Shown here piece after piece: positions 2,964-60,377 of a stretch of DNA of 64,000 nucleotides (position 1 is its first letter; each line of letters opens with the position of its first letter). The position numbers and the translations under genes were made by a program. Below the pieces are notes generated by a model. It saw only the letters and a list, made by a program, of their open reading frames with translations. It searched no databases and was not told the DNA's origin. Source of the DNA: Mobilicoccus caccae (GTDB lineage Bacteria > Actinomycetota > Actinomycetes > Actinomycetales > Dermatophilaceae); assembly GCF_030161635.1 (NCBI RefSeq), contig NZ_BSUO01000001.1:2957199-3021198 (forward strand), in the 5' to 3' direction.

Positions 2964-4086
2964 GCGGAACCCCTCGGCACGTCGACCTGAAGGACGAAGC
3001 TCTCCCCCACCACCGCCGACGACACGCGGGCCCCCAGCGGGTGACCCCGTTCGGCGAGACCGCGCAGGCCCGTCCCGCTCGGCCCGGTCGGTGGGTGCGG
3101 CCGGTCGTTGGTCATGGCCAGGCGGGCACCCCCGGCCCGGTCGTCACGGTGATCGCGCAGGTCGTGGCCCCGCTGTGGCGCAGCACGTTGGTCGCACCCT
3201 CCCGCACGACCGCTGCCAGGTACCGCGACGCATCGCCCGTCCCGACGGGGGTGGCATCGACCTGGGTGGCGATGCCTGCCGAGGCGAGCACACGGACAGC
3301 GGTGCGCAGTTGTTCGTCCAGGTCGAGCGGATCGTGGCCCCGCAGCGTCGCCCGGGCCCGCTGGAGGCCGGCCTCGGCCAACGTGCGGATCTCCCTGGCC
3401 TGTCCCGAGCTCGCTGCCGGGTCGGCGACCGTGAGGTCGGCGACCAGCTCGGCCTTGAGGGCGATGACCGTGAGGTTCTGGGCGAGGACGTCGTGGAGGT
3501 CGCGGGTCAGCCGCAGCCGCTCCTGGGTGACGGCCAGGGCCGTGCGTGCCTCCCGCCCGGTCTCGCTCGCGATGAGCAGGCGCAGGAGCCATACGGTCAG
3601 GGCACCCATCCCGGCCACGCCGACCGCGGTCACGAGGGTGAGGACGAGCAGATCCCTGAGGCCGCCGCCGAGAAGCACGCTCACGGCGCCGCCACCCAGG
3701 ACGACGGCGGCGACGAGGACTGCGCCCCGACCGCAGGGGTGCAGCACCACCAGGGCACCGACGGCGAATCCGGCCACCCATGACCAGGGAACGGCCGACG
3801 GTTCGGCCAGGAGGGTGAGCGGTCCTGCGAGCGCCACCGTGGAGAGCACCAGGCCGAGGTCGGCGACCTGCGGCCCAGCGCCGTCCACCCAGGGCGTGAC
3901 CGCACCGTGGAGTACCAGCCCCTGCGTCACGGCGTACCCGAGCAGCAACAGGGTGACTCCGAGGGCGGGCGCGCCGGGGACCCAGCGGACCTGGCTCGAG
4001 GCCAGCAGCAGGACGATGGGCAGGTTGAGCAGCAGCAGCGTCAGGACCAGGAGCCGCGCCTGCTGCGCCCGCGGTGAGTCGGTCAC
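2960..4086 (-). CDS. Sensor histidine kinase, DesK type (single-base frame break near C-terminus)
   Basis: About 375 residues after correction. Five to six membrane helices in residues 12-172, then the phosphorylation helix TRDLHDVLAQNL with H198, and a HATPase N-box VVREGATNVLRHSGA. The frame breaks after residue ~316 at a run of five C on the + strand (3130-3134): adding one base joins ITVTTGPG to GARLAMTNDRPH and leads through the G2 box (GTGLRGLAER) to the stop that overlaps the response regulator start. Uncorrected, the protein ends 30 bases into the ATP-lid. The corrected length is exactly 376 codons, so I read this as a sequencing deletion. Start is GTG 4086, with no SD of its own; a short leader frame ends 7 nt upstream. 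Confidence 0.82.
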
Positions 4087-4093
4087 GGTGAGG

Positions 4094-4153
4094 TCATCGC
4101 CCGCGGCCCTCGCCCCGGGAAGACACCGTGGCGCGGTAGCTCAGGATCGGCAT
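4094..4153 (-). CDS. Possible 19-residue leader peptide upstream of the kinase
   Basis: ATG at 4153 is preceded by a strong Shine-Dalgarno GAAGGAG at 7 nt spacing (4161-4167) and encodes MPILSYRATVSSRGEGRGR, then TGA. The stop lies 7 nt before the GTG of the histidine kinase, which lacks a recognisable ribosome site, an arrangement that would allow translational coupling. The peptide is basic and has no membrane segment. There is no attenuator-like codon run. It may be a true leader peptide or an alternative N-terminus in another frame; I cannot decide without expression or conservation data. Confidence 0.45.
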   Translation of the reverse strand: MPILSYRATVSSRGEGRGR

Positions 4154-4520
4154 GTCCGTTCTCCTTCGACGAGCGGTCACGGCGTGGCGTGAACACCGTG
4201 GGGGGTGTGACGCCGTGGCGGCAACGATGCCCGCTGTGCCCGTCGAATCAATCAACCGATCCGCCCTCGTCACCCGTCCGATCGGAGGACGTCACCGTGG
4301 ACGCCGCGCCACACCCCCGTGAGCTCGTCCCCGAGGAGGCGGGCGCTGTCCCCGTCGAGGGGGCGGGTGGGGGCGCGGGAGGCGCCACGTTCGGGCGCTG
4401 CGTCGAGTCGGCGCACCATCGGGGGCGCGGTCGACTCCGCCGACCGCGATGGGCGCGCAGGGCAGGGGTGACCCCATCCGGCAGCGCCGTGAGCGCGGTG
4501 GAAGGGACGACGGGACCTGG
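4154..4520. other. Gene-free stretch between kinase leader and membrane protein
   Basis: Apart from the SD just before 4153 I see no convincing gene here. Short frames on both strands have Arg/Pro/Gly-rich translations typical of antisense or non-coding high-GC sequence. The relatively AT-rich spot near 4228-4250 is the likeliest place for the promoter of the leftward kinase operon. Confidence 0.4.
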
Positions 4521-5129
4521 TCACAGCGGTTGCATCGCCCAGGCCGTCACCAACAGCGCGACGCCCAGACCGAGGTCGAGGACGAAGCAGGCCTCGGTGA
4601 GCGAGCGACTGACGACCTTGTCGCGGACCCGGTGGATCACGTCCCAGACGGTGTGCCCGAGCGCTGCGGCGGCCGCCAGGTACACGGCGAGCGCCGGCCC
4701 GGACAGCATCGCCGTGAGCGCGATGGCGGCGAAGCCGACGAATCCCGCGCTCTGGAGGCCGACCTCGCGTCGGGCCGATCCCGTGTGACGGAGGAGGCCG
4801 TAGACGGCGAATCCCACTCCCATCACCAGAGGCGTGGCGGTCACGTCGAGTCCGGTGAGGCGGGCGAGGACGACGGCGATGCTCACGACGACGACCATCA
4901 CCCAGGAACTCCGTCGCGAGCCGACGGCGGCCGCGCCGAGGTAACACGTCGAGGCCAGGATGATGATCATCGCGGTCAGGTGGGGATCGGGGTCGGAGAT
5001 GTTGCCGGCGAGTGCGAGCAGACCGAGGACCGACGGCCACCGTGCGAGCAGGTGATGTCCGACTGCGGCGGCGCGGCCGGATGGATGCGGTTCGTGCGTG
5101 CGGGTGTCGAGGTTCGTGGTGATCTTCAT
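4521..5129 (-). CDS. Multi-pass membrane protein of unknown function
   Basis: 202 residues from the ATG at 5129 (MKITTNLD); an in-frame upstream start at 5198 would add 23 residues but runs into the selC promoter. About seven hydrophobic helices: LLARWPSVLGLLALAG, LTAMIIILASTCYLGAAAVG, WVMVVVVSIAVVLARLTG, PLVMGVGFAVYGLLR, GFVGFAAIALTAMLSG, ALAVYLAAAAALGHTVWDVI and the C-terminal FVLDLGLGVALLVTAWAM. No catalytic motif or family that I recognise. It stands alone, divergent from selC, and faces the preceding kinase operon's upstream region. Confidence 0.65.
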   Translation of the reverse strand: MKITTNLDTRTHEPHPSGRAAAVGHHLLARWPSVLGLLALAGNISDPDPHLTAMIIILASTCYLGAAAVGSRRSSWVMVVVVSIAVVLARLTGLDVTATPLVMGVGFAVYGLLRHTGSARREVGLQSAGFVGFAAIALTAMLSGPALAVYLAAAAALGHTVWDVIHRVRDKVVSRSLTEACFVLDLGLGVALLVTAWAMQPL

Positions 5130-5202
5130 GTCCGACAGCGTCTGCTCGGCCACCGCCCGGTGGACCCGTGCATCTGTCACGGACGAACCGTGCGCCACGC
5201 CC

Positions 5203-5208
5203 TACAGT
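5203..5208 (+). promoter_or_regulatory. -10 box of selC (TACAGT)
   Basis: TACAGT lies 7 nt before the first base of the mature tRNA, so the tRNA would be made with little or no 5' leader. No convincing -35 box can be seen. Confidence 0.5.
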
Positions 5209-5215
5209 GGTGCGC

Positions 5216-5311
5216 GGAGGCGTCTGGGTTCCTGGTGGGCCCCGCGGTCTTCAACACCGACGAGGTCGAGCATCTCGGCCTGGCGGGTTCGATCCCCGTC
5301 CGCCTCCGCCA
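5216..5311 (+). tRNA. selC: tRNA-Sec (anticodon TCA)
   Basis: 96 nt including encoded CCA. The acceptor strands GGAGGCG and CGCCTCC pair, the T-arm is GCGGG-TTCGATC-CCCGT, the anticodon arm is CGGT-CTTCAAC-ACCG with TCA at 5251-5253, and there is a long variable arm with a CGAG/CTCG stem (5261-5277). The long D-arm, extended acceptor and UCA anticodon together are diagnostic of selenocysteine tRNA. It decodes UGA with SelA and SelB, whose genes lie 7 kb downstream on the same strand, separated from it by the galactose cluster. The eighth acceptor pair looks mismatched (T-C), worth checking against a covariance model. Confidence 0.95.
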
Positions 5312-5314
5312 CGT

Positions 5315-5357
5315 CGCAGCAGGGGTCGCCGACACGTTGTCGACGACCCCTGCTGCG
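5315..5357. terminator. Strong bidirectional stem-loop after selC
   Basis: A perfect 14-bp inverted repeat (CGCAGCAGGGGTCG and its complement at 5344-5357) with a 15-nt loop that itself can pair (GAC/GTC). It begins 3 nt after the tRNA CCA and ends 11 nt before the stop codon of the converging small gene, so it can terminate both. No T-tract, as is usual in actinobacteria. Confidence 0.8.
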
Positions 5358-5368
5358 TGTGCGGATCC

Positions 5369-5641
5369 TCAGTGTCCGGAACGCCTTTCGCCCTCGGACG
5401 TGGCGGTCTCGTCGACGACGATGGGCCGGACCTTGACCCAGACCAGGAAGATCCCGCCGGTGACGAGCAGCGCGATCCCGGCGATGAGGTTGGCGTTCAC
5501 GCCGCCGGTCTTCTCCAGCGCGGGATCGGCGAACATTCCCATCGCGACGAGGATCACGCCGTAGATCGCCAGGAGCAACCCGATGATCGAGCGGATGTCG
5601 AAGATGCCGGCGGTGTGCGCCGTGGGTGCGGAAGTCGACAT
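5369..5641 (-). CDS. Small two-helix membrane protein paired with the symporter
   Basis: 90 residues with two hydrophobic helices (SIIGLLLAIYGVILVAMGMF and LIAGIALLVTGGIFLVWV) separated by a short polar loop, and a charged C-terminus. It starts 12 nt after the symporter stop in the same direction, so it belongs to that operon. Small membrane partners of this kind commonly follow SSS-family symporter genes in actinobacteria and may stabilise or regulate the transporter; the function is not known. No enzymatic motif. Confidence 0.75.
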   Translation of the reverse strand: MSTSAPTAHTAGIFDIRSIIGLLLAIYGVILVAMGMFADPALEKTGGVNANLIAGIALLVTGGIFLVWVKVRPIVVDETATSEGERRSGH

Positions 5642-5653
5642 GGGTCTCTCCTC

Positions 5654-7357: not shown

Positions 7358-7426
7358 GAGGTCCCCTCTCTGATCGGCCGGTGGGTCGCCTCGACGTGGC
7401 GCTCGGGCCGGGCTCCGGGGAGCTCA

Positions 7427-7440
7427 TGTTTGCGTCACCA
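7427..7440. promoter_or_regulatory. Second, weaker LacI-type operator
   Basis: TGTTTGCGTCACCA matches the complement of the site at 7539 in its first eight bases and 10 of 14 overall. It lies 70 bp upstream of the symporter start, where it could control the leftward promoter. Confidence 0.45.
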
Positions 7441-7538
7441 TCGTCGCGATGGGAGCGATCCTCTGCCCCTATTCCCGTTCTGTCAAGAGGAGATCGGGTA
7501 TTGCCCACGAGCGGCCGTCGTGCCATGATCCTGGCAAC

Positions 7539-7552
7539 TGTTAGCGCAAACA
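7539..7552. promoter_or_regulatory. LacI-type operator in the galactose divergent promoter
   Basis: TGTTAGCGCAAACA is a near-palindrome centred on CG, the classic form recognised by LacI/GalR regulators (consensus like TGTTAGCGCTAACA). It lies about 100 bp before galK. The probable ligand is the LacI-family protein encoded as third gene of the same operon. Confidence 0.7.
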
Positions 7553-7647
7553 TGGGCGGGCGAGGTTCCGGCATCAGGTGGTCGGTCTCCGGTGGTGATC
7601 CCCGGTCTCGTCGAGGCCCGTCAGGGCGTGTGGACGAGGGAGTCGAC

Positions 7648-8844: not shown

Positions 8845-9757
8845 CCAGCACGAAGACCCCCTCGTCCACGGGCCGCCAGTACGAGCTCCGCCACGGCGAT
8901 CAGGTGGCGATCATCACCGAGGTCGGGGCCGCCCTTCGCCTGTACCGGGTCGGTGATCGCGACGTCGTCGTGCCGTTCGGCGAGCACGAGCTCCCGCCGG
9001 CCGTGCACGGCGCCGTCCTCCTCCCCTGGCCCAACCGGATCGGCGACGGCACGTATGAGTTCGACGGTGCCACCTACCGACTCGACCTCTCCGAGCCCGA
9101 GCGACACAACGCGATCCACGGGCTCGTACGCCACACCCGGTGGCGTTGTGTGGAGGCCCACGACTCCGCGATCGAGATGGCGCTCGAGCTCGTCCCCCGG
9201 GCCGGCTACCCGTTTCCTCTGGAGAGCCGGGTGCGCTACGACCTCGGAGCCGACGGCCTGTCGGTCTCGCTGGTGACGACGAACCTCGGTGACACCGACG
9301 CGCCGTACGGTGCCGGCTTCCACCCGTGGCTCTCCCCCGGCACGCACCGCCTCGACGACTGCCAGTTGTCCATGGACGTCGAGACTCGCGTCGAGGTCGA
9401 CGACCGGCTCCTGCCCGTCGCGGAGTCCACCGACATCCCCCCGACGTCGACTTCCGCAGCCGTCGCCGGATCGGTGACACCCGGCTCGACGACGGCTTCG
9501 CCGCGCACGGCCCTCACCCGGAGGTGCGCCTCACCGATCCCGACGGGGTGACGGCGTTCGTGCTGGCCGTCGAGGGGGTCCGGTACTGGCAGGTGTTCAC
9601 CGGCGACGGACTCCCGCAGCGTTGGCTCCGCAGCGGCCTGGCCGCAGAGCCGATGACCTGTGCGGCGGACGCGTTCCGCACGGGCCGGCATCTGGTGCGA
9701 CTCGGCCCGGGGCGCAGCCACACCACGCGCTTCACCCTCGGGCTGCGGGCCTCATGA
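8841..9757 (+). CDS. galM: Aldose 1-epimerase (mutarotase), with one-base frame break
   Basis: 305 residues after correction. Interconverts alpha and beta galactose so that galactokinase can use it. The N-terminal 200 residues carry the galactose-mutarotase fold with LLPWPNRIGDGTY, HNAIHGLVRHTRW and YGAGFHPWLSPG (substrate-binding histidines). After PVAESTDIPP the frame is lost in a run of six C (9437-9442); adding one C continues with DVDFRSRRRIGDTRLDDGF, then LTDPDGVTAFVLAVEGVRYW and a normal C-terminus ending in an ATGA overlap with the regulator gene. The corrected gene has exactly 306 codons. Read as a sequence error rather than a pseudogene. Confidence 0.9.
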
Positions 9758-10797: not shown

Positions 10798-10852
10798 CCC
10801 GCGGCCGCTCGAGCAGCGAACTGTGCCTGGAGACGGTGGGGCGCCAGGCCCT

Positions 10853-12361: not shown

Positions 12362-12433
12362 GGATGCTCCTCTCGTCGCCCCCATCATGACCGGCCGGAA
12401 CGCCGGGAAACAGCCGGACGCGCTGATGGCGAC

Positions 12434-12439: not shown

Positions 12440-12477
12440 CGCCGGAGTCGTCACCGCACCAGCAGGAGGGATCGTCG

Positions 12478-15617: not shown

Positions 15618-15639
15618 CGCGACCTCGGAGGGTGTTCCA

Positions 15640-15890
15640 CAGGTTGCTCCGGAAGATCGTCCCGTCGGTGGCCTCCTCCTCGAGCCGCTCCAGCGAACGG
15701 CCGCGAGTCTCGGGCACGACCAGGATGAAGACCAGCGCCACCGCTCCGATCAGCGCGAAGCCGAAGTAGGTGCCGTCGATGCCGAGCACCGCGAGCGCGT
15801 CGTCATGGCGTCCCTTCTCCACCAGCCAACGCGCAGACCACCCCGTCTCCCGGGCGCCGACGATGACGGCTCCGGGTGTGCGCGTCGCGT
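15640..15890 (-). pseudogene. Remnant of an MFS sugar-porter gene
   Basis: The minus-strand frame contains SARWLVEKGRHDDALAVL, which is the central cytoplasmic loop of sugar porters (GalP/XylE family), directly followed by GTYFGFALIGAVALVFIL and VPETRGRSLERLEEEA, which is their last helix and C-terminal PETKG motif. About 200 residues between these two positions are absent, and the N-terminal half is missing too. There is no start codon or RBS. This is a decayed fragment between selB and the MFS exporter, pointing to a past rearrangement at this junction. Confidence 0.75.
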
Positions 15891-15893
15891 TCT

Positions 15894-17034
15894 TCAGGTG
15901 GTCGCGAGGTCCGCGCGGGGAGGAGCCACACGAGGCCCGCGCCCAGTGCGGTGAGGGCTCCGCCGACGGTGAAGAGTCCCGTGATGCCGATGACGTCGAG
16001 GAGGAGTCCGGAGACGCCGCCACCGGCCCCCTGACCGACTGCGATGGTCGCGAACAGGATGGCGGTGCCGGTTCCCATGGCGTGAGGCCACGCCTGACGG
16101 GCGAGCTCGATGGTCAGCCCGCACGCGATGACGTAGACGGCTCCGAACACGCAGCCACAGGCAGCAGCCATCGGGAGCCCCGTCGCGAAGGGGAGGCCTG
16201 CGATGCTCGCGCCGAGCAGGAGTGAACTCACCGACCACGACGTGCGGGTGCCGAACCTCGCGGAGAGATCGCCGGAGAGCGCGCCGACGACACCTGCGGC
16301 CCCGATCGCTCCCCAGAAGAGGAGGGAGGCGCCTTCGTCGAGGGACGCGGCGTCCTCTGCGGTGCTGCGACCGAAGGTCCAGAAGACGGAGCTGCCGAAC
16401 CCCATGAGCATCGTCAGCGCCACGGGGAGCGCCAGGGCGGCCACGCGGCCCGGCGTCTCGGAGCCTTGCGTGGGGGTATCGGGGCGGGTCGTCTCCCGCG
16501 TGAGTGCGAGGAAGCCCAGGACCGACAGGATCGCGAGCACTGCCGCGGCCGTGAACAGTGTCCGCCAGCCGCCGGGCAGCATGATGAGCGCCGTGGCGAG
16601 CGCGACCCCGGCCCCCGTCCCGGCATTGGCGACGGCCTGCGCGCGGGGCTCGATGTGTGCGGGGGTGTCACGGGTGATGCGGTAGGCGATCGCGCCGGAG
16701 GCGAACCCGGCTGCAGCGCCGGCGACGGCAGCTCCCGTGAGGAAGACCCACGCGGTCGTGGCGGAGGCAAGAACGAGGCATCCCCCACTCCCGGTGAGAA
16801 GGCACATCAGCAGGCTTGCCCGCCACCGGCCCTGGCCCAACAGCACGCCGCTGAGGGCGCACGCTGCGACATACGTGACGAACGCACCGGTCGAGGCGAA
16901 GGCCAGCTGTGACGCGCTGACGATGCCCTCGTCCACGATTCGGGGGCTGCCAAACCGACGCCGAACCGCGCCATGCCGTAACAGACCGCCACGATCCCCA
17001 TGCCCGCTCCGACGAGTGCGGTGCCGCGCGTCAT
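15894..17034 (-). CDS. MFS transporter, YbfB/YjiJ type (frame breaks at two homopolymers)
   Basis: About 380 residues after correction, 12 membrane helices. The N-terminus TALVGAGMGIVAVCYGMARFG is typical of YbfB/CynX-like exporters. At 16942-16946 (five G on the + strand) adding one base joins FGVGLAAP to RIVDEGIVSASQLAFASTG, restoring helix 1 to helix 2. Downstream, helices such as WRASLLMCLLTGSGGCLVLAS and ATALIMLPGGWRTLFTAAAV are intact. At 15917-15920 a second added base would end the protein cleanly at VWLLPRADLATT; without it the frame runs on to 15803 into the sugar-porter remnant. With both, the gene is 381 codons. Divergent from a GlxA-type regulator, which may control it. Confidence 0.75.
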
Positions 17035-18949: not shown

Positions 18950-20025
18950 TCACCCTCGCGTGGGGTGGAGGCGGATCTCCTGGGCCTTGACCACGGCGTG
19001 GACAGCCGAGCCCGGAGCCAGTCGGAGGTCGGCGACGGCGCCCGGGCTGAGGTCGGCGGCGATTCTCGGGCCTGCTGCGAGCTCGACGCCCACCCGGATC
19101 ACTCCCCCACGGTCGGCGAGGTCCGTGACGACCCCCGGCCACACGTTTCGCGGGCTGCCCGCGGGTGGCTCGGCGTAGAGCGCGACGGCCGCGGGGGACC
19201 ACACGGCGACGGCCGTCGGGTCGGTCCCCAGCGCTTCGTCGCGGACGCCACGGACCGCGAGACCCGATTCGGTCCGCAGCACGTCTCCCCCTCGGTGCGG
19301 CCACGGACGTGATTGACCCCCGCGAGACCGGCCGCGAACGCACTCGACGGCGCGCGCAACACCTCTGCCGTCGGTGCGCACTCGACGATGCGGCCGTTCT
19401 CGATCACCGCCAGGTCGTCGGCGAGGGCGAGCACGTCGAGCAGGTCGTGCGTGACGAGCACGGCCGGCACCGACGACCGTCGCAGCTCGGCGCCGAGGAC
19501 GCGGCGCATCTGGGGAGCGGCATGGACGTCGAGGGCAGCGAACGGCTCGTCGAGGAGCACGGCCCGTGGTTGCGACGCCAGCGCCCTGGCCAGGGCGACC
19601 CGCGCTGCCTGCCCCCCGGAGAGCTGGGCCGGGAACCGCCGGGAGAACCGTGCCGCGTCGACCTCCTCCAACAGGTGGGTCGCCCGACGCCGCGCCTCCT
19701 CGCGCGACCTCCCCTGCGATCGCGGACCGAACTCGACGTTCGCCTGCACCCGCAGGTGAGGGAAGAGCAGCGGTTCCTGCCCGAGGACGGCGAGGCGCCG
19801 CTCGTGGGGTGGGGTGAACCGGCCGCGGGCGGAGTCGACCAGCACCGTGTCACCGACCGCGAGGTAGCCCTCGGCGGCCCGCAGCAACCCGGCGATGAGA
19901 TCCACCGTCGTCGACTTGCCGGCACCGTTGGGGCCGACGAGCGCGAGCGTCCGACCGGCCTCGACAGCGAGCTCCGCGTCGTAACCGCGCTCAGGGACGA
20001 CAGCCCGAAACCTCAACCCGCTCAT
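18950..20025 (-). CDS. modC: Molybdate ABC transporter ATP-binding protein (one-base frame break)
   Basis: 358 residues after correction. Energises molybdate import through ModB. Walker [14 protein letters not shown], signature [16 protein letters not shown], Walker [16 protein letters not shown] and switch LVTHD are all present in the first 210 residues. At 19287-19291 (five C on + strand) the frame breaks after HVRGRTEG; one added base continues with [14 protein letters not shown] and the C-terminal TOBE/molbindin domain ([15 protein letters not shown] end, [20 protein letters not shown] region). The corrected gene is exactly 359 codons. Start ATG 20025 overlaps the modB stop (ATGA). Confidence 0.92.
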
Positions 20026-22333: not shown

Positions 22334-23476
22334 ATGACTGCCACGCGACTGCTGCCGAGCTCGGAGGCCCACGACCTCATCGCCATGACCCGAGAGGTGT
22401 GCAACGAGCGCCTCCGGCCCATCGTCGACGAGATGGAGGCGAAGGCCGAGTTCCCGCGCGACATCTTCGCGTTCCTGGGCGACCAGGGCCTGCTCACCCT
22501 GCCCTACCCCGAGGACGTCGGTGGCGGTGGGCAGCCTTACGAGGTCTACCTGCAGGCGCTGGAGGAGATCGCGTCGGCGTGGATGAGCGTCGCCGTGGGG
22601 GTGTCGGTGCACTCGCTCACCTGCAACCCGATCTTCGCGTTCGGATCGGACGAGCAGAAGGCGCGCCTCCTGCCCGAGATGCTCGACGGGTCGAAGCTCG
22701 GCGCCTACTGCCTGTCCGAGCCCGATGCCGGTTCGGACGTGGCGGCCATCTCGACCCGCGCGCGTCGTGAGGGCGACGACTACGTCCTCACCGGCGTCAA
22801 GGCGTGGATCTCGCACGCGGGGCACGCCGACTTCTACACGACCTTCGCCCGCACCAGCGATGACGGCCCGCGCGGCCTGTCCTGCTTCCACGTCCCCGCA
22901 GGCACGCCCGGGATGGAGTTCGCGCCGCCGGAGCGCAAGATGGGCCTCGACTGCGACACCGTCGGCCAGGTGATCTTCGACGACGCCCGCATCCCTGCGG
23001 ACCACCTCATCGGCGCCGAGGGGCAGGGCATGACGATCGCGCTGTCCGCCCTGGACGCCGGCCGTCTCGGCATCGCCGCCGCCGCGACCGGACTCGCCCA
23101 GGCCGCTCTCGATCAGGCCGTGGCCTACGCCAAGGAGCGCAAGGCATTCGGCAAGCCGATCTCGGAGTTCCAGGGCCTGGCGTTCCTGCTGGCGGAGATG
23201 GAGGCGGCGGTGACGAGCGCCCGCGCGAGCTACCTGCACGCGGCCCGCCTCAAGGACGCGGGCAAGGCCATGAGCAAGGAGGCCTCGGTCGCCAAGATGA
23301 TCTGCACCGACGCCGCGATGCGGGTGACGACCGACGCCGTCCAGGTGCTCGGCGGCTACGGCTACACCAAGGACTACCCGGTCGAGCGGTACATGCGCGA
23401 GGCCAAGGTCACCCAGATCTTCGAGGGCACCAACCAGATCCAGCGCCTCGTCATCTCCCGCCACCTGCTCAAGTGA
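22334..23476 (+). CDS. Acyl-CoA dehydrogenase, short/branched-chain type
   Basis: 380 residues, full length. FAD-dependent alpha,beta-desaturation of acyl-CoA esters (fatty acid or branched-chain amino acid breakdown), passing electrons to ETF. Motifs: YCLSEPDAGSDVAAISTRA (FAD/substrate), KAWISHAGHADFY, ERKAFGKPISEFQ, QVLGGYGYTKDYPVERYMRE, and catalytic glutamate E364 in QIFEGTNQIQR, the position used by short-chain and 2-methyl-branched enzymes. Single gene with its own leaderless promoter; no neighbouring beta-oxidation gene. An IS110 element is inserted only about 60 bp after its stop codon. Confidence 0.95.
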   Translation: MTATRLLPSSEAHDLIAMTREVCNERLRPIVDEMEAKAEFPRDIFAFLGDQGLLTLPYPEDVGGGGQPYEVYLQALEEIASAWMSVAVGVSVHSLTCNPIFAFGSDEQKARLLPEMLDGSKLGAYCLSEPDAGSDVAAISTRARREGDDYVLTGVKAWISHAGHADFYTTFARTSDDGPRGLSCFHVPAGTPGMEFAPPERKMGLDCDTVGQVIFDDARIPADHLIGAEGQGMTIALSALDAGRLGIAAAATGLAQAALDQAVAYAKERKAFGKPISEFQGLAFLLAEMEAAVTSARASYLHAARLKDAGKAMSKEASVAKMICTDAAMRVTTDAVQVLGGYGYTKDYPVERYMREAKVTQIFEGTNQIQRLVISRHLLK

Positions 23477-23548
23477 GGTCGTGAGGTCGTGAGGGCGCGG
23501 GCGCGGGCCTCCGCCCTCGTCCCGCGCCGAAACCGGCACCCTTCTGTG

Positions 23549-24475
23549 TCAAGCGGGGGTCTTGAGGGGGTCGTATTCTGGGTGGTGACGGGTCCGGGAA
23601 GTGATTGATCCGAAGTGTCGGTGTGGGGCTGTGAGCCGGCCGCGCTGGATGACAGTGACGCGCCCCGGTGTCCTCCTGGGCCCGTCCTTTGTGTGGTGAG
23701 GACGTCGTTGAGCATGGTGCGGTAGAGGATGTCGGATAGGCGTCGTTTCAGGCAGCGCATTGCTTCGCTGGGGCGTTTGCCGGCGGCGATTTTCCGGTCG
23801 TAGTAGGCCCGTCCTTGGGTTGTGGGGGTGCGCAGCTGGACGATGGCCATGATGTGCAGCACGTGGTTGATCTGTCGGTTCCCGCCGCGGGAAAGGCGGT
23901 GGCGGGTGTTGTCACCGGAGGAGGCGTCGATCGGGGCGGTACCGTTCCAGGACGCGAAGTGGCCTTTGCTGGGGAACCGGGTGATGTCACCGATCTCGAC
24001 CAGCAGCCGGGCGGCGCCGGTGGGCCCGATGCCGTGCAACCTGAGCAGGGCGGTTCCGGTGCTCTTGAGGAGCTCGATGAGTTCCTTGTCCGCGCTCTTC
24101 TTGCGGGTGTGGATCCGTTCCAGGTCGACCACCAGTTCCAGGGCGACCCGTTTGCGGGTCTTGCCCAGGGCGTCCTTGGGTCGCACGCCGGTCAGGATCG
24201 TGCGGGCCTGGGCGGCGGACAGGTCTTTCTTGGCCCCACCAGGGACGATCGCAAGCAGCAGGGCGTGCAGCTGGCAGATCTTGCGGACGTGTTCCTCCCC
24301 GATCCGGCGGCGCCGGTCGACCAGCAGCCGCAGGACTTCCAGCTGTTCGTCGTGGGCCACCGACTGCAGCCCCGCGATCCGGGCCCCGACCAGGGCGATG
24401 GAGTGGGCGTCGGTGTCATCGGTCTTGCGGCCCTGGCCGGTGGCGAAGATCCGCATCCGGGCGGACAGCTTGGCC
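23549..24475 (-). pseudogene. IS110 transposase, C-terminal part
   Basis: Begins after the IS3 left end with AKLSARMRIFATGQGRKTDD, carrying the last two acidic residues of the DEDD catalytic set (KTDDTDAHS). Then a coiled helical region and the Transposase_20 domain with the conserved serine region: LLRLHGIGPTGAARLLVEIG, FASWNGTAPIDASSG, RLSRGGNRQINHVLHIMA, YYDRKIAAGKRPSEAM. The tail reads to the expected stop (PLKTPA) only if one base is added in the five-G run at 23566-23570; uncorrected, the frame runs 170 bases further, antisense into the acyl-CoA dehydrogenase gene. Reconstructed with the N-part it is 394 residues, normal for the family. Confidence 0.85.
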
Positions 24476-24482
24476 GGCACGT
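24476..24482. repeat. Left target duplication of IS256, split by IS3
   Basis: GGCACGT, the first seven bases of the 8-bp IS256 target duplication GGCACGTC (right copy at 27336-27343). IS3 inserted inside it and duplicated CGT (24480-24482 and 25865-25867); the remaining C is at 25868. This fixes the order of insertion: IS110, then IS256, then IS3. Confidence 0.85.
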
Positions 24483-24537
24483 TGAATCGCCCCGGGTCTG
24501 ATGGAGGCTCTCAATCCTGGGAAGGATGATGAGAGTC

Positions 24538-25834
<1,297 letters not shown>

Positions 25835-25864
25835 CCGAGCCTCCACGAAACCCGGGGCGATTCA

Positions 25865-25867
25865 CGT
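25865..25867. repeat. Right IS3 target duplication (CGT)
   Basis: CGT directly after the right end of IS3, identical to 24480-24482 before its left end. Confidence 0.75.
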
Positions 25868-25868
25868 C

Positions 25869-27335
25869 GAGCCTGTCAAGTTGTCTGTGTAAGTGACCTG
25901 GGTCTCATGGGGTGTTACAGGTAGGGGTTGATGCGGTCGGGATAGATCAGGGCGAGCTCTCCCAGGGCGGCTTTCCAGCCTTGGATGACGGAACCCTCGA
26001 CGAGCTTGCCGGGCGCCTTGCGGGGAGTTCCTCTGGGGGCGCCGGCTTCCTTGGCGCGTTCACGGGCCCGCTTGTCCTCGATGTTGCGGATGGCCAGCCA
26101 CAGCAGCTTGATCGCGGCCGTGTCGCTGGGGAAGTGGCCGCGGTTCTTGATGATCTTGCGTAGCTGGTAGTTGAGCGACTCGATCGAGTTGGTCGTGTAG
26201 ATGACCTTCCTCAACGCCGGCCCGAACGCCAGGAACGGGGTGAACCGCTCCCATGCGTTCTCCCAGGAGGCCACGGCGGCGGGGTACTTCTTGCCCAGGT
26301 TCGAGTCGGCGAACGCGGTCAGCGCCATCAACGCCGCGTCCTCGTTCGCGGCGGTGTAGATCGGACGCAGCATCGCCGCGACGGCCTTGCGGTCGGTGTA
26401 GGAGACGAACCGCATCGAGGCCCGGATCAGGTGCACGACGCACGTTTGGACCATCGCGCGGGTCCAGGTCGCCTCGATCGCCTCGGGGAAGCCGGTCAGA
26501 CCGTCGCAGCAGACGATCAGCACGTCCTTGACGCCGCGGTTGGCCAGCTCCGCGCACACCGAGGCCCAGAACTTCGCGCCCTCGACGGCTTGGACCCAGA
26601 TGCCCAAGACGTGCTTGACGCCATCCAGGTCCACGCCGACAGCGATGTGCGCAGCCCGGTTGGCCACGTGCGCGCCGTCACGGATCTTCACCACCAGCGC
26701 GTCGAGGTAGATCACCGGGTAGAACGCCTCCAACGGCCGCGTCTGCCACGCGGTGACCTCCTCGGCCACGGCGTCGGTCACGTTGCTGATCGTCTCGTGG
26801 GACAGCTCAGTGCCCAGCGTCGCAGCCAGATGATGCTGGATGTCGCGGATGGTCATCCCGCCCGCGTACAGCGAGATGATCATGTCCTCCAGTCCACCCA
26901 GACGCCTTGCGCCCTTGGGCACCAACGACGACGCGAAGGTGGAGTTACGATCCCTCGGCCGGTCCAAGCCGACGTCCCCGACCTCGGTCCCGACCGTCTT
27001 CGGGGTCGTGCCGTTGCGCGAGTTGCCCGAGCCGTTCCCACCCGGGTCGCCCTTCTCATACCCGAGGTGGTCGGTCAGCTCGGCCTGCATGCCCCGCTCG
27101 AGGACTGCCTTGATCATCTCGGGCAGGAATCCGCCCTCACCCGTCAGCGACAGGCCCCGCTCGTCGGTGGCGGCCATCAGCTTGTCGAGCATCTCGTCGT
27201 CGAAGAACTCACGACGCAACTGACGCGCTTCAGGCTCCTGCCCGGGCTCGTCGCTCTTCTTCGGCTTGGTCATAGCCATAGTCAATCTCCTTCAGGTGGG
27301 AGACCCCTCGCTTAAACAGACCATCTGACACCCCC
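25869..27335 (-). mobile_element. IS256-family insertion sequence, complete
   Basis: 1467 bp. Imperfect terminal inverted repeats, 20 of 30 matching (shared core TGTCA..T.GTCTGT.TAAG.GA). An 8-bp target duplication GGCACGTC flanks it, the length expected for the family. It is inserted in the IS110 transposase gene about 85 codons from its start. One intact transposase gene. Confidence 0.93.
25915..27279 (-). CDS. IS256-family transposase (mutator type)
   Basis: 454 residues from ATG 27279 (GAAGGAG with 7-nt spacing). Mutator-type DDE transposase: N-terminal HTH region (LERGMQAELTDHLGYEKGDP), then GLEDMIISLYAGGMTIRDIQ, the first catalytic Asp in PVIYLDALVVKIRD, the second in VLIVCCDGLTGFPEAIEATW with the C/D-H pair in QTCVVHLIRASMRFV, and Glu near IYTTNSIESLNYQLRK. 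The C-terminus APRGTPRKAPGKLVEG is slightly longer than common members. Intact, so probably functional. Confidence 0.95.
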   Translation of the reverse strand: MAMTKPKKSDEPGQEPEARQLRREFFDDEMLDKLMAATDERGLSLTGEGGFLPEMIKAVLERGMQAELTDHLGYEKGDPGGNGSGNSRNGTTPKTVGTEVGDVGLDRPRDRNSTFASSLVPKGARRLGGLEDMIISLYAGGMTIRDIQHHLAATLGTELSHETISNVTDAVAEEVTAWQTRPLEAFYPVIYLDALVVKIRDGAHVANRAAHIAVGVDLDGVKHVLGIWVQAVEGAKFWASVCAELANRGVKDVLIVCCDGLTGFPEAIEATWTRAMVQTCVVHLIRASMRFVSYTDRKAVAAMLRPIYTAANEDAALMALTAFADSNLGKKYPAAVASWENAWERFTPFLAFGPALRKVIYTTNSIESLNYQLRKIIKNRGHFPSDTAAIKLLWLAIRNIEDKRARERAKEAGAPRGTPRKAPGKLVEGSVIQGWKAALGELALIYPDRINPYL

Positions 27336-27592
27336 GGCACGTCCACGACCTGCTCGCCCAGCGGCAACAACCTGGCCACGACATGTCGACCGATGCCCTC
27401 ACAGCCCTCGACCGCCCACCTCCGTTGGGGCCAACGCCTGACGTACTCCAGCATCGCGGCGAAGCCGTCCTCGTCGGTGGTGAACTGTCCGTGTCCGAGG
27501 ATCTGCTCCTTGGGAGTCATCACCTCGATCGTGACGGTGCGCTTGTGCGGGTCCATCCCGATCACGACCGGACCCGGTGCCTGCTCGTTCAT
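27336..27592 (-). pseudogene. IS110 transposase, N-terminal part
   Basis: 85 residues from ATG 27592 with AGGAGG upstream. Carries the first catalytic Asp (VVIGMDPHKRTVTIEV) and the Glu (RRWAVEGCEGIGRHVV) of the DEDD RuvC-like domain. Cut by IS256 immediately after VVDVP; the translation then runs into the IS256 end. Its first eight bases on the + strand (27336-27343, GGCACGTC) are the right-hand target duplication. Confidence 0.88.
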
Positions 27593-49728: not shown

Positions 49729-49750
49729 AGGGATGGTCGAATCCTCTCCT

Positions 49751-49905
49751 GACGGCGCCTGTGGGGTTAGCTGTCGGGTTCGGGCGTCAGGTTGCCCGGC
49801 CGAAGAGAATCGGCTTCACCCCCAGATCGTCAGTCGACGATCATTGGCCGGATCGCGGCCTCTGGGTCCCCCACCTTCGTCTGCCCGGTCTCTCCGGCGA
49901 AGCAC
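49751..49905 (-). ncRNA. c-di-AMP riboswitch (ydaO/yuaA type)
   Basis: In the minus-strand leader of the Rpf gene the conserved core elements appear in order: GGGGGACCCAGAGG near the 5' part, GGGTGAAGCCGATTC in the middle, then GCCGGGCAACCTGACG, CCCGAACCCGACAGCTAACC and ACAGGCG at the 3' end. These match the ydaO consensus known upstream of rpf genes in Streptomyces and mycobacteria, where c-di-AMP turns expression off. Boundaries are approximate. Confidence 0.85.
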
Positions 49906-50188
49906 CCCCTGACGAAGCTCGGCGCGAGGGCGCGCAGATGTACGGATATGTGCAGTTGTTCTCGTCGGGCCCCCGAGGACAGGACCATGAACCTGTCGGC
50001 CAAACGCGAGTGACTCTAAGCCAGAGACTTGACCTGAGCAATACCTGGATCACATCTGCGCAACGATCCGGCAACCGGAATGTTGCGGGCGACGGCATCG
50101 TCGCACGTGGCAGGCACGCGCTGAATCCTCGACCGTGACCGTGCTGTGACCAAAGCGACATGAACACAACCCCGGCACGGACACCCCC

Positions 50189-52183: not shown

Positions 52184-52219
52184 GGCACCTCCTCGCGGGC
52201 CCGTCCCCCGGGCCGGCCT

Positions 52220-52243
52220 CCCGGGCAGGACGTCCCTGCCGGG
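52220..52243. repeat. Hairpin in the Ser/Thr kinase leader
   Basis: CCCGG-CAGG pairs with CCTG-CCGGG (one bulged G) around ACGT, within the ~70-nt leader between the minus-strand -10 box TACAGT (52259-52264) and the kinase start. Confidence 0.4.
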
Positions 52244-52424
52244 CCTCGTTCGGCTCCCACTGTAGAGACCGCCGGCGAGAGGATCCTGAAGGACATCTGA
52301 GAGCGCCTTCATCCGCGCGTCGCCGCGCCACCCGCGTTCGTGCGCGCCGACGCTCACGCCCGTCGACCCTCCGCCGACCCCTGATCTCCCCCGGGTCCGA
52401 CGGGTGCCGCGCCACCCGCCCGCA

Positions 52425-52430
52425 TAGGAT
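52425..52430 (+). promoter_or_regulatory. -10 box TAGGAT upstream of otsA
   Basis: TAGGAT 37 nt before the otsA ATG; the leader contains AGGAG. Position relative to the divergent kinase promoter (TACAGT on the minus strand, 52259-52264) defines a 160-bp shared control region. Confidence 0.4.
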
Positions 52431-52467
52431 GACGACGAACCCGGACGCGCGCAGGAGTTGATCACCC

Positions 52468-53906
52468 ATGACTGGGGACCAGGCCACGTACGACTTCGTC
52501 ATCGCAGCCAACCGGCTGCCGGTGGACCGCGGTGACGACGGTGAGTGGAAGCGGAGCCCGGGTGGCCTCGTGACGGCCATGGACTCGGTGATGCAGAACC
52601 GGGACGGCGCGTGGGTCGGCTGGGCCGGGGAGCCGGGCGAGGCGCCCGAACCCTTCGACGACTCCGGGATGCACCTGCACCCCGTGGCGCTGTCGGCCGA
52701 GGAGGTCCGCGACTACTACGAGGGCTTCTCCAACGACACGCTGTGGCCGATCTACCACGACGTCATCGTGCCCGCCACGTTCCATCGACGCTGGTGGGCC
52801 AACTATCGGGCGGTCAACCAGCGGTTCGCCGAGGAGGTGGCCAAGGTCGCCGCCGAGGGCGCGACGGCCTGGATCCACGATTACCAGCTGCAGCTCGTGC
52901 CGGCGTTCCTGCGCAAGCTGCGCCCCGACCTGCGGATCGGCTGGTTCAACCACATCCCGTTCCCGCCGGTCGAGCTGTTCGCCCAGTTGCCGTGGCGAGG
53001 TCAGATCATCGACGGCCTCCTCGGCGCCGACTTCCTCGGGTTCCAGCGGGAGGACGACTCCTGGAACTTCCTGCGTGCCTGCCGTCAGCTCGAGGGTCAC
53101 GAGACCGACGGTGACACCCTGCGCCTGGACGGACGCACCGTCCGCGCCGCGGGCCTGCCGATCTCGGTGGACTTCGCCGGTCTGGACGAGCGGGCCCGAC
53201 GTGAGGACGTGCAGCAGCGGGCCGCGGAGATCCGCGAGCAGCTCGGCAACCCCGAGGTCCTCATGCTGGGCGTCGACCGCCTCGACTACACCAAGGGCAT
53301 CCGGCACCGGCTGAAGGCCTACCACGAGCTCCTGCTCGACGGGGAGTTCACCCCGCCCGACGTGGCCCTCATCCAGGTGGCCGTCCCCAGCCGCGAACGG
53401 GTCGAGGCCTACCAGACCCTCAAGGACGAGATCGAGCTCATGGTCGGCCAGATCAACGGCGACTTCTCGACCGTGGGGGCGAGCGCGGTGCAGTACCTGC
53501 ACCAGTCCTTCGACCGCGACGAGATGGCCGCCATGTTCCAGGCCGCCGACATCATGCTCGTCACCCCCTGCGCGACGGCATGAACCTCGTCGCCAAGGAG
53601 TACGTCACCTGCCGGCACCGCGAGGACGGTGCGCTGGTGCTCTCGGAGTTCACCGGCGCCGCACACGAACTGCGCGAGGCCTACATCCACAACCCGCACG
53701 ACATCCAGGGGTTGAAGAACCGCATCGTCCAGGCGATCCGCGACACCCCCGAGGAGCAGCACCGCCGCATGAAGGCCCTTCGGGCGACGGTGCGTTCGCA
53801 CGACGTGCAGGAGTGGGCGGCCAAGTTCCTCGCCTCGCTGCAGTCGGCGCCGATCGAACCCGCCCAGAAGGACGTCGAGGACCTCACCGACGACGCACGG
53901 GCCTGA
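52468..53906 (+). CDS. otsA: Trehalose-6-phosphate synthase (one-base frame break)
   Basis: 479 residues after correction. Makes trehalose 6-phosphate from UDP- (or ADP-) glucose and glucose 6-phosphate. GT20 motifs: [72 protein letters not shown], and after the break [12 protein letters not shown] and [12 protein letters not shown]. The frame is lost in a five-C run (53564-53568) at [16 protein letters not shown]: adding one C restores the strictly conserved P-L-R-D-G-M-N. Corrected gene is exactly 480 codons. A functional gene is therefore far more likely than two fragments. Followed by otsB. Confidence 0.93.
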
Positions 53907-53935
53907 CCGGCGACCGACACGCAGGAGGACGATCG

Positions 53936-54712: not shown

Positions 54713-54892
54713 CCCCACCCCGTTGCGCAAGCGGCGCCGGGCTCGCACCACACGGCGCGACCCCTGCGGCCTCCAGGGATGCCATGATGACGAGCACCGC
54801 GTCGTCGCGCCTCCCGGTTCGGCGGTCCGGTACTGCCTTTACGACGGATCGTCCGGCACGTTCCTGCCGGTGAAGGAAAGGACAACGACGTC

Positions 54893-55966
<1,074 letters not shown>

Positions 55967-56105
55967 TCGTGCGCGTCCGATCCGCGACGCCACCGCGACA
56001 CCCGAACGACGGCGACGCCCGAACCATGGACAATGACTACGGTCGGGCGTCGCCGTCGTCTGCGCCCGGGCCGCCGTGGTCGAGCCCACCGAGGGGAGGA
56101 AAGCC

Positions 56106-57356
56106 GTGCAGTTCATGACGTCTCACGCCGATCCCAAGCTGCTGGATCTGCCCTGGTCGACGCCGTTGGAGGAATGGGACCGCAGCCACCTCGCGGCCCT
56201 GCCCCGCGGCATCTCGCGTCACATCGTGCGGTTCGTCAAGGTGGGCCGGCGCATCATCGCCGCCAAGGAGATCCGCGACGACATCGCGGCCCGCGAGTAC
56301 GACATGCTCCGCAACCTCGGGCGCATCGGGCTCCCCTGCGTCGTCCCCTACGGCGTCGTCAGCGGCCGCCAGAGCGTGGACGGGGAGCCGTTGGACGGCA
56401 TCCTGCTCACCGAACACCTGCAGTTCTCCCTGCCCTACCGGGCGTTGTTCAGTCAGCGGCTGCAGCCCGACACGGTCCTGCGCCTGCTCGACGCCCTGGC
56501 CGTGCTGCTCGCGCGTCTGCACCTCGCCGGCTTCTGGTGGGGTGACGTCAGCCTGTCGAACACCCTGTTCCGTCGCGACGCGGGCGCCTTCGCCGCCTAC
56601 CTCGTCGACGCCGAGACGGGGCAGTTGTTCCCGTCGCTGTCCAACGGGCAACGGGAGCACGACCTCGACATCGCCCGCGTCAACATCGCCGGCGAGCTCA
56701 TGGACCTGGCCGCCGGCGGCGCCATCCCCGACGACGCCGACCCCATCGAGATCTCCGATCGCATCGTCAGCCGATACCGCCGGTTGTGGACCGAGCTCAC
56801 CGGCCTCGAACGGTTCGAGCGCGGCGACCGCTGGCGCCTGGAGGAGCGGGTGCGCACCCTCAACCAGTTGGGTTTCGACATCGACGAGTTCGAGATCTCC
56901 ACCGACGTCGACGGGGCCACGATCCAGATCCAACCGAAGGTCGTCGACGCCGGACACCACCGCCGCCGGCTGCTGCGCCTCACCGGCCTCGACGTGCACG
57001 AGAACCAGGCCCGGCGCCTGCTCAACGACCTCGACGCCTTCCGGGCCGGCGAGGGCCGCGGTGACGAGCCGGAGGAGTTGGGCGCCCACGACTGGATGCT
57101 GCGCGTGTACGAGCCCGTGGTGCGCAACATCCCCGAGGAGTTGTCGGCCAAGCTGGAGGCCGCGCAGATCTTCCACGAGGTCCTCGAACACCGCTGGTAC
57201 CTCTCGGAGCGGACCGGCCACGACGTCACCACGCAATGGGCCTTCGCCGACTACCTCACCCACGTCCTGCCCGCCAAGCCCGACGAGAAGTCGGTGGTGG
57301 GTGTGGACACGGTGGAGATGCCGGTCATCGCGATGTTCCCGCCGGACGAGAACTGA
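56106..57356 (+). CDS. DUF4032 protein, kinase-like fold
   Basis: 416 residues from GTG 56106, with GGGAGGAAA upstream (56076 is another in-frame start but has no SD). N-terminal kinase-like half: IVRFVKVGRRIIAAKEIRDD (ATP lysine), LTEHLQFSLPYRALFSQRL, GFWWGDVSLSNTLFRRDAGA (catalytic loop-like D-x-x-x-x-N) and AYLVDAETGQLFPSLSNGQ (DxE in place of DFG). The C-terminal half (from ~290) is the DUF4032 region (LRLTGLDVHENQARRLLNDL, WYLSERTGHDVTTQWAFADY). It is a conserved actinobacterial protein of unknown role, possibly a lipid or sugar kinase. Confidence 0.85.
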   Translation: MQFMTSHADPKLLDLPWSTPLEEWDRSHLAALPRGISRHIVRFVKVGRRIIAAKEIRDDIAAREYDMLRNLGRIGLPCVVPYGVVSGRQSVDGEPLDGILLTEHLQFSLPYRALFSQRLQPDTVLRLLDALAVLLARLHLAGFWWGDVSLSNTLFRRDAGAFAAYLVDAETGQLFPSLSNGQREHDLDIARVNIAGELMDLAAGGAIPDDADPIEISDRIVSRYRRLWTELTGLERFERGDRWRLEERVRTLNQLGFDIDEFEISTDVDGATIQIQPKVVDAGHHRRRLLRLTGLDVHENQARRLLNDLDAFRAGEGRGDEPEELGAHDWMLRVYEPVVRNIPEELSAKLEAAQIFHEVLEHRWYLSERTGHDVTTQWAFADYLTHVLPAKPDEKSVVGVDTVEMPVIAMFPPDEN

Positions 57357-57386
57357 CCGCCTGCTCCGCCGCCAGGACCTACGTCG

Positions 57387-58361
57387 TCAGCCGTTCTCGG
57401 CCCGGCGCCGGGCCACCTCGTACAGCGCGACACCGGTGGCCACACCCGCGTTGAGCGACTCGATCTCCGCCGCCATCGGGATGGACACGATCTGATCGCA
57501 CGTCTCACGCACGAGGCGGGACAGGCCCTTGCCCTCGGAACCGACGACCACGACCAGGGGTTCGGTGGCCAGCTCGAGGCCGGGAAGTTCGACGTCGCCG
57601 TCCATGTCGAGCCCGACGACGAAGAACCCGGCCTTGCGGTAGGCCTCCAGCGCACGAGTGAGGTTGGGCGCCTGAGCCACCGGGATGCGGGCGGCAGCCC
57701 CGGCGCTCGTCTTCCACGCGGAGGCGGTCATACCGACCGATCGGCGCTCGGGGATGATCACCCCGTGCCCACCGAACGCGGCCAGCGAGCGCAGGATCGC
57801 ACCGAGGTTGCGCGGGTCGGTGATGCCGTCCAGGGCGACGACCAGGGGGATTCCGGGCGTCTGCGGGTCCACGAGGTCGGCCGGGTCGGCGTACTCGTAC
57901 GGCGGCACCTGCAGGGCCAGACCCTGGTGCACGGCGCCGTCGGTGAGCCGGTCGAGCTCGCCGCGCGGGGTCTCGAGCATGGGGATCCCGCGCTCGGAGA
58001 CGGTCTTGATGGCCTCACGGACGCGGTCGTCGGAGTCGATCCGGCTCGCGACGTACAACGTGGTGGCCGGGATGTCGGCCCGCAGCGCCTCGACCACGGA
58101 GTTGCGGCCGGCGACGATCTCGCTGCTGCGCGGTCCACCTCGCCGGGCCCCGCGCGCCGGGCCGGACGACTGAGGGCGGCCCTGGCGGGTCGTCGGCGCC
58201 TTCTTGCCCTTGTACGCCTTGTGGTTGACGCGGTCCTCGGCCTTGGGCGTGGGGCCACGACCCTCGAGGCCACGACGCCGGTTGCCGCCGCTGCCGACGT
58301 TCGCACCCTTGCGCGAGGCGCCCTTGCGGATGGCGCCTCTACGTTGTGAATTTCCGGGCAT
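57387..58361 (-). CDS. rlmB: 23S rRNA 2'-O-methyltransferase (G2251), SpoU family
   Basis: 324 residues from ATG 58361. An N-terminal Arg/Lys/Gly-rich extension (1-75) precedes the SpoU substrate-binding domain ([20 protein letters not shown]) and the SPOUT domain with the knotted SAM site: [20 protein letters not shown] (motif 1), [19 protein letters not shown] (motif 2), [20 protein letters not shown] (motif 3). Methylates the peptidyl-transferase loop G2251. As sequenced it is in frame with the end of cysS, which would make a fused protein, but the one-base correction described there separates them. Confidence 0.93.
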
Positions 58362-58362
58362 G

Positions 58363-59801
58363 TCAGTCCTCGTCGGGTCGGCGGGCGATCGACCATCGAG
58401 CACCCGCGGGGTGTCCTCGACGACGATGCCCGCATCGGTCAGGGCGTCACGGATGGCGTCCGCGGTGGCGAAGTCGCGCTCCTTGCGAGCGGCGGCGCGC
58501 GCGTCGAGCCGGTCCTGGACCAGCTTGTCGAGGGCGCCTTCGAGACCGGACCGCTCGCCCCCGCCCGCGTGCCAGGAGGTGTCGAACGGGTCGACGCCGA
58601 GCACGTCGGTCATGGCCAGCACCTGGCGCGCGGCCAGCGTGGCCCCGGCGGTGTCGCCGGAGTCGAGCGCGGAGTTGCCCGCGCGCACGGTGTCGTGGAT
58701 GACGGCAAGCGCTCCGGAGACGTTGAGGTCGTCGTCCATGGCCGCGGTGAAGCCTGCGGGCAGATCGGCGACCGGCAACCGCTCCTGATCGGCGAGGGCG
58801 GATCCGCCCGCCCGCTCGAGGAACCCCTCGATGCGCGCGACGGCGGACTCGGCCTCGGCCAGCGAGGTCGGGTGGTACTCCAGCGTCGAGCGGTAGTGCG
58901 AGGACCCGATGTAGTACCGCACGGCCAGCGGACGCGCCTGGGAGGTGATCTCCGCGACGGTCATGCCGTTGCCGAGGGACTTGCTCATCTTCTCCCCGCC
59001 CGCCGTCAGCCAGGCGTTGTGCATCCAGTACCGGGCGAATCCGAGTCCGGCCGCCCGCGACTGGGCCAGTTCGTTCTCGTGGTGCGGAAAGCGCAGGTCG
59101 ACTCCGCCGCCGTGGATGTCGAAGGTGTCGCCGAGGTACTTGCGGGCCATCGCCGAGCACTCGAGGTGCCAGCCCGGACGGCCGCGACCGTAGGGCGTCG
59201 GCCAGCTCGCCGTCTCCGGCTCGCCCTCCTTGTGCCCCTTCCACAGCGCGAAGTCGCGCGGATCCCGCTTGCCCCGGGGGTCGGCGTCGCCGGCCGCCTC
59301 CATGTCGTCGATCGACTGGTGGGTCAGCGAGCCGTACTCGGGAAAAGAGCGGACGTCGAAGTAGACGTCGCCGCTGTCGTCGGCGGCCGGGTAGGCGTGC
59401 TCGCGCTCGACCAGGGTGCGCATGAGCTCGACCATCTCGGTGATGTGCCCGGTGGCGCGCGGTTCGTACGTCGGCGGACGGATGCCGAGGGTCTCCATCG
59501 CCTCGGTCGTCTCGCGTTCGTGGGCGTAACTCCAGGCCCACCAGGGAGCGTCGTTCTCGGCCGACTTGCGCAGGATCTTGTCGTCGATGTCGGTGACGTT
59601 GCGCACGAGGGTGACGTCGTACCCGTGGCCGTACTCCAGCCACCGGCGCAGGATGTCGAAGGCGACGGCGAACCGCAGGTGCCCGATGTGCGGGGTGCCC
59701 TGCGTGGTGAGTCCACAGATGTACATGCCCACCTTGCCCGGCTCGAGCGGGACGAACTCACGGAGTTCGCGGGCTGCGGAATCGAAGAGACGAAGACTCA
59801 C
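58363..59801 (-). CDS. cysS: Cysteinyl-tRNA synthetase (one-base break at the 3' end)
   Basis: 479 residues after correction. Class I synthetase: HIGH motif in [17 protein letters not shown], zinc Cys in [12 protein letters not shown] and [14 protein letters not shown] with [17 protein letters not shown] in [20 protein letters not shown]-type anticodon domain ([19 protein letters not shown] onward). At 58375-58377 (GGG on the + strand) adding one base gives ...RSPADPDED and TGA 1 nt before the rlmB ATG; as sequenced the frame reads on through TRTD into rlmB. The corrected gene is exactly 480 codons. The fusion is therefore most likely an artefact. Confidence 0.94.
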
Positions 59802-59871
59802 CGCGCCAGCCTACAAGGCGCGCGGAGTCGGTCTTTCTCTCGACCGGGTCCCGCGACGGTCCATCCGCACG

Positions 59872-60377
59872 TCAGGCGTCGACCCGCCGCACGAGGAGGG
59901 CCACCGCGACGGCGGCGACGCCCTCACCGCGACCGGTGAGCCCGAGCCCGTCGGTCGTCGTGCCACTGACCGTGACCGGGGCACCGCAGGCATCTCCGAG
60001 GGCCTTCTGCGCCTCGTCGCGACGGGTGCCGATCTTGGGCCGATTGCCGATGACCTGCACCGACACGTTGCCGATGTCGAAACCGGCCTCGCGGACCAGT
60101 CGTGCCGCCTCGGCCAGCAGGGTGCACCCCGATGCGCCCTCCCACTGAGGACGGCCGGTGCCGAAGTGTGCGCCGAGATCGCCGATGCCCGCAGCGGAGA
60201 ACAGGGCGTCGCACGCGGCGTGCGCGGCGACGTCGGCGTCCGAATGTCCTTCGAGTCCGGGCTCCCCGGCCACTCGAGGCCGGCGACCCACAAGGGGCGC
60301 GGCGAGGACGCGAAGGCGTGGACGTCGGTACCGACACCCACGGTGGGCAGCGCGATGCGCACGTCATCCCCGTTCAT
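59872..60377 (-). CDS. ispF: 2-C-methyl-D-erythritol 2,4-cyclodiphosphate synthase (one-base break)
   Basis: 168 residues after correction, MEP pathway for isoprenoids. N-terminus [20 protein letters not shown] with the metal Asp-x-His, then LEWPG; at 60274-60277 (four C on +) one added base continues as [20 protein letters not shown], with the second metal His, and [16 protein letters not shown]-terminal [19 protein letters not shown] and [19 protein letters not shown] are standard. Start ATG 60377 overlaps the ispD stop. Corrected length is exactly 169 codons, so decay of this essential gene is very unlikely. Confidence 0.95.

Follow-up and report, generated by a model that had tools for sequence, protein, structure and literature searches.

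Reading-frame breaks at short homopolymers in the Mobilicoccus caccae assembly point to long-read consensus errors

The 64,000-nucleotide stretch of Mobilicoccus caccae DNA analysed here (hereafter the window; positions 2957199-3021198 of the main contig) contains nine genes that change reading frame, or differ between repeated copies, at a short run of one base. It belongs to a genome assembly of 4,529,606 bases in 5 contigs, with a completeness of 89.2 and a contamination of 1.28, the main contig of which spans 4,391,389 bases. Judged from the protein encoded at 56076-57353, the closest relatives are Mobilicoccus pelagius, Mobilicoccus massiliensis and a Mobilicoccus metagenome-assembled genome (MAG), at 86-90% amino-acid identity. 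Proteins of relatives were placed on the window by tblastn, matches in different frames were chained, and shift sites were localised by frame-tolerant alignment. All nine genes, for each of which the initial annotation had claimed a one-base deletion, show a frame change of the -1 class (one base missing) or a run shorter than in other copies, and most of the positions proposed for them hold:

3129-3133, minus strand: run of five in a sensor kinase gene (open frame 3112-4086); the homology switches frame
9437-9442, plus strand: C6 run in a galM-like gene; -1-class frame change, seen with one homologue
16942-16946, minus strand: run of five in a gene for a YbfB-like MFS transporter; -1-class frame change, seen with one full-length homologue
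19287-19291, minus strand: run of five in a gene for a modC-like ABC transporter ATPase; -1-class frame change
23566-23570, minus strand: run of five near the 3' end of an IS110-family transposase gene; its length varies among four genomic copies
24819-24823, plus strand: T5 run in IS3 orfA, at the start of an ALIL pseudoknot; T6 in five foreign copies
53564-53568, plus strand: C5 run in otsA; -1-class frame change
58408-58411, minus strand: run of four near the 3' end of cysS; frame change
60264-60267, minus strand: run of four near the 5' end of ispF; frame change

All 18 tblastn queries crossing the C run of otsA split there, each with a shift of the -1 class, and all 19 queries for ispF split likewise, with 18 shifts clustering at the site (16 of the -1 class and two of the +1 class); these are counts of queries rather than of independent genes, some of them stemming from overlapping loci. 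In DNA alignments with three relatives, the ispF gap falls within a few bases of the C4 run at 60264-60267. The frame change proposed for ispF therefore stands, but its position was off by about 7-10 bases, as base 60274, where the C4 run had been placed, is a T. The cysS gene is also shifted, the M. pelagius protein being split at residue 465 of 481, but the proposed G3 run at 58375 lies about 33 bases from the actual break and was rejected, since the frame is already restored upstream of it. As assembled, cysS and rlmB are left in one open frame of 804 amino acids (57387-59801). That the corrected genes have lengths divisible by three had also been put forward as support; once a frame is restored this is bound to be so, and it adds no independent support.

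The modC-like gene is split by the M. massiliensis protein and by one other locus. Two more queries, duplicates of one M. pelagius gene, continue for about 100 bases beyond the site in the first frame, and a second match then takes over in the other frame. For the galM-like gene, a single M. pelagius protein is split exactly at the C run. In the MFS gene, one homologue of the family (L222) aligns in one frame as far as 16942 and in a different one starting at 16894, with a net shift of -1. The Mobilicoccus MAG's own copy sits in two open frames and is not decisive. A second, optional MFS site at a G4 run (15917) proved unneeded and was rejected, as the L222 homologue is full length and reaches its last residue at 15905. 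Downstream of this gene, in another frame, the stretch 15627-15904 (minus strand) resembles by eye the C-terminal end of a sugar-porter transporter and is perhaps a remnant of a second transporter. The sensor kinase is the weakest case of the nine. Ten of 11 homologous loci gave a usable match, of which seven end at or near 3130, two continue weakly across the stop codon and one (L212) resumes in the other frame beyond 3130 (E 3e-4).

The two remaining genes are compared with copies of themselves. The IS110 transposase gene occurs in four genomic copies, the window's included, which are 98-99% identical; three carry G5 at the site equivalent to 23566, and the run of the fourth (L160) is longer. 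In L160 a stop codon soon closes the frame, and in the three G5 copies the frame runs on into DNA that differs between copies. Both genes lie in a block of insertion-sequence genes (23374-27592) that by eye holds more transposase-like open frames, and the IS110 and IS3 sequences of this block are also repeated elsewhere in the genome.

ALIL is a signal for -1 frameshifting in IS3 elements, and the Rfam ALIL pseudoknot (RF01497) is found at 24816-24964, beginning at the T run, with 53.1 bits against a gathering score of 50. For this element only, the frame change might thus be the programmed -1 frameshift of IS3-family transposases and no error, a view favoured by the position of the pseudoknot and by our frame reading, in which orfB lies one -1 step from the orfA frame of the T6 copies. 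However, with T5 here against T6 in five foreign copies, orfA departs from its usual frame ahead of the programmed step, and the Rfam alignment likewise has a one-base gap at the T run. An ordinary programmed frameshift as the sole explanation was dropped, since comparison with the foreign copies shows the run itself to be shorter, and we consider it unlikely. In known IS3-family systems, a slippery heptamer precedes the ALIL pseudoknot between orfA and orfB. Similar to them, the site is on the run preceding the pseudoknot; unlike them, it has one T less than five foreign copies, and it concerns only one of the nine genes. The run is T5 in both copies of this genome, which are identical, and the 17 foreign loci have T6 in five cases, T4 in one (L188, genome G122) and an interrupted run in the rest. 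Judging from these sequences, the T run varies among related elements. The site thus combines a programmed signal with a shorter run and is not a simple broken gene; it may be a real mutation.

The frame breaks are not confined to the window but extend through the sampled 664 kb of chromosome around it (main contig 2617199-3281198), which were compared with 640 kb of an M. massiliensis contig. Gene calls were made with a simple script of our own, and a gene was compared only if at least 60% of the relative's gene was covered, at an identity of at least 50%. This filter was passed by 312 of 495 gene calls from M. massiliensis (324.7 kb) and by 68 of 103 from M. pelagius. Against M. massiliensis, 41 of the 312 genes are shifted, with 45 shifts, 43 of them of the -1 class. 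Against M. pelagius, 10 of the 68 genes are shifted, with 10 shifts, all -1. About one in eight checkable genes therefore has a broken frame. As a control, M. pelagius and M. massiliensis were compared with each other by the identical test, which gave zero of 71 genes (69.7 kb) and one of 71 (70.5 kb); at the rate of the present genome about 19 would be expected, and the Poisson chance of zero or one is about 7e-8.

Frame-tolerant alignment placed 49 distinct events, 47 of them of the -1 class. Of these 47 sites, 37 are at C/G runs of at least four bases, compared to 8.9% of 20,000 random coding spans treated alike. On the assumption that the lost base belongs to the run, the inferred loss rises steeply with the true run length, from 3 of 9,097 runs of three (0.03%) and 6 of 2,163 runs of four (0.3%) to 16 of 557 runs of five (2.9%) and 19 of 42 runs of six (45%), with 2 of 2 runs of seven and 0 of 1 run of eight. 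In the stretches sampled, C/G runs of six number 10.4 per 100 kb in this genome, compared to 19.7 in M. massiliensis and 26.7 in M. pelagius. Among C5 runs, a loss was inferred at 11 of 114 with T as the next base and at 5 of 443 with A or G, about an 8.5-fold difference (Fisher P 3e-5); at the inferred length of six this enrichment is not significant (6 of 8 versus 13 of 34, P 0.11). Base-calling context or base modification could be behind the preference for T. Scaled up from 47 losses in the 330 kb of coding sequence compared, and assuming 3.85 Mb of coding sequence in all, the whole assembly would be expected to contain about 550 errors of this kind.

The split genes include many that are normally indispensable. 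The single enolase gene of the genome lies in two adjoining pieces; recR, asd, ispE, coaA, tsaE, nuoI and menG are split too, as are cysS and ispF of the window. The versions of 38 of the 41 split genes in the relative were submitted to NCBIfam naming, the other three crossing the ends of the stretches, and the names returned include enolase, RecR, aspartate-semialdehyde dehydrogenase, IspE and type I pantothenate kinase, and further TsaE, NuoI, SelD, FlhA and a polyprenyl diphosphate synthase. Mfd is also among the 41, with a shift of the +1 class. A living cell with all these essential genes broken is hardly credible.

Moreover, repeated copies disagree inside the assembly. The genome's two copies of the 23S ribosomal RNA (rRNA) gene have a C run of unequal length within the 23S match (L224:1501-4609), in otherwise identical surroundings: it is C6 in L224 and C5 in L226, and M. 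massiliensis has C6 at the same run. Towards 16S, the spacer shows a second one-base difference between the rRNA copies, again at a C run and beside a substitution. This disagreement is independent of reading frames.

Altogether, the frame breaks at runs are almost certainly consensus errors of an unpolished long-read assembly, probably a nanopore one, in which C/G runs are under-called by one base. The change is one-way and steeply dependent on run length; it is nearly absent in two relatives tested alike and hits indispensable genes and non-coding RNA genes together, and both the 23S rRNA and the IS110 copies disagree within one assembly. The low completeness despite only 5 contigs also counts in favour. 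An unpolished long-read consensus would drop one base from such runs, and each lost base would break a reading frame in the assembly only, the genes themselves being predicted intact in the living bacterium. We infer from this pattern that the missing base came from within the run and was removed in base calling or in building the consensus, and we infer the platform likewise. The assembly error proposed in the initial annotation is thereby borne out, as a known kind of artefact rather than a biological feature, and the biological content is slight.

Could the runs instead have been shortened in the chromosome, by replication slippage in a mutator strain with many pseudogenes? Slippage also depends on run length, the IS3 T run varies in other genomes, with T4 in L188, and the two IS3 copies of this genome agree. 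Yet the sole enolase is broken along with cysS, ispE, ispF, asd, coaA and tsaE, which a cell could hardly lose all together, 43 of 45 shifts go in one direction, and the 23S rRNA copies disagree at a run where M. massiliensis matches one of them. Natural pseudogenes would be expected to be confined to dispensable genes; because normally indispensable genes are hit together, we rejected them, and real deletions of this kind are very improbable.

Still less probable is that the shorter runs are real and that the cell compensates for them at C/G runs, either by slippage of its RNA polymerase or by frameshifting of the ribosome: such mechanisms exist for single genes and the IS3 element here has a known -1 frameshift signal, but the 47 sites are spread over many unrelated genes, ten are at runs of two or three, too short for slippage to be expected, the untranslated 23S rRNA copies disagree likewise, and relatives hold the same genes in one frame. 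Its broadest form, in which the chromosome would truly be one letter short at hundreds of C/G runs and the polymerase or ribosome would restore the frame as a routine step of expression, has a negligible chance of being correct.

Several observations weigh against consensus error as the explanation. Both the error and the platform are deductions from the assembled sequence. The two IS3 copies agree on T5, as they would after a real mutation. Ten of the 47 localised sites are at runs of only two or three, some of which may be real or misplaced, and relatives often carry another base within the aligned run, so that the missing base may be a different one. The +1 class accounts for two of the 45 shifts; the one in coaA resolves into two -1 steps in series, whereas that in mfd stays +1. 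In nuoM, a further +1 event is accompanied, at a distance of 42 bases, by a -1 event, and this gene, counted among the 41 by the automatic rule, is doubtful and may not be broken. Finally, one of the 71 control genes also scores as shifted; the shift falls in one M. massiliensis protein, between its kinase and protease parts. This protein is a 921-amino-acid open frame (L086:471-3236) in which an MtrB-like histidine kinase is joined to an HtrA-like protease, and the M. pelagius gene call matching it has 507 residues.

Consensus errors of this type have been described before. The Kastor report on a long-read Pseudomonas assembly found that homopolymer deletions mostly followed runs of four to five, and in its example pseudogenes fell from 23.3% before correction to 5.6% after it (PMC12007338); the Homopolish paper describes a like error profile in nanopore assemblies (PMC8011154). 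They share with the present assembly the homopolymer-linked deletions, the many false frameshifted genes and the lowered completeness, but A/T runs are the commonest in the Kastor case, whereas the losses localised here are almost all at C/G runs, as a GC content of 70% would lead one to expect. The account of methylation-motif errors in nanopore consensus (PMC6591954) likewise describes context-dependent errors, comparable to the C5 losses that are commoner before T, though by eye no single motif such as CCWGG covers the sites here.

The initial annotation had named unpolished long reads or 454-type data as the source. Long reads fit better: because the loss is nearly one-directional and the main contig reaches 4.39 Mb, we prefer an unpolished long-read consensus and rejected 454 data as the likeliest source, which seems less probable. 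R10.4 chemistry has been reported to give a consensus in which the great majority of homopolymers below 11 bases are resolved, and R9.4.1 assemblies gained from short-read polishing (PMC9262707). The present profile thus suggests that an older nanopore chemistry was used and that no polishing with short reads followed.

The assembly represents its species in a GTDB-based collection, and in the protein set derived from it about one gene in eight is probably damaged. The consequences are false pseudogenes, false fusions such as cysS-rlmB, an apparent loss of essential genes and a lowered completeness; evolutionary conclusions drawn from gene loss in this species would mislead, as the initial annotation had warned for counts of pseudogenes or fusions. 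A flag on the assembly is merited rather than biological follow-up. The approach is reusable as a check that needs no reads, combining a run-length-dependent, one-way loss of frame against two relatives with disagreement between rRNA or insertion-sequence copies.

A selenocysteine tRNA gene lies at 5216-5311 (plus strand) of the window, and the frame-shifted selD is found nearby, about 4.4 kb upstream of the window, so that selenoprotein annotation here needs care. Further RNA features of the window are a c-di-AMP riboswitch aptamer at 49741-49909 (minus strand) and an msiK RNA at 54828-54886 (plus strand).

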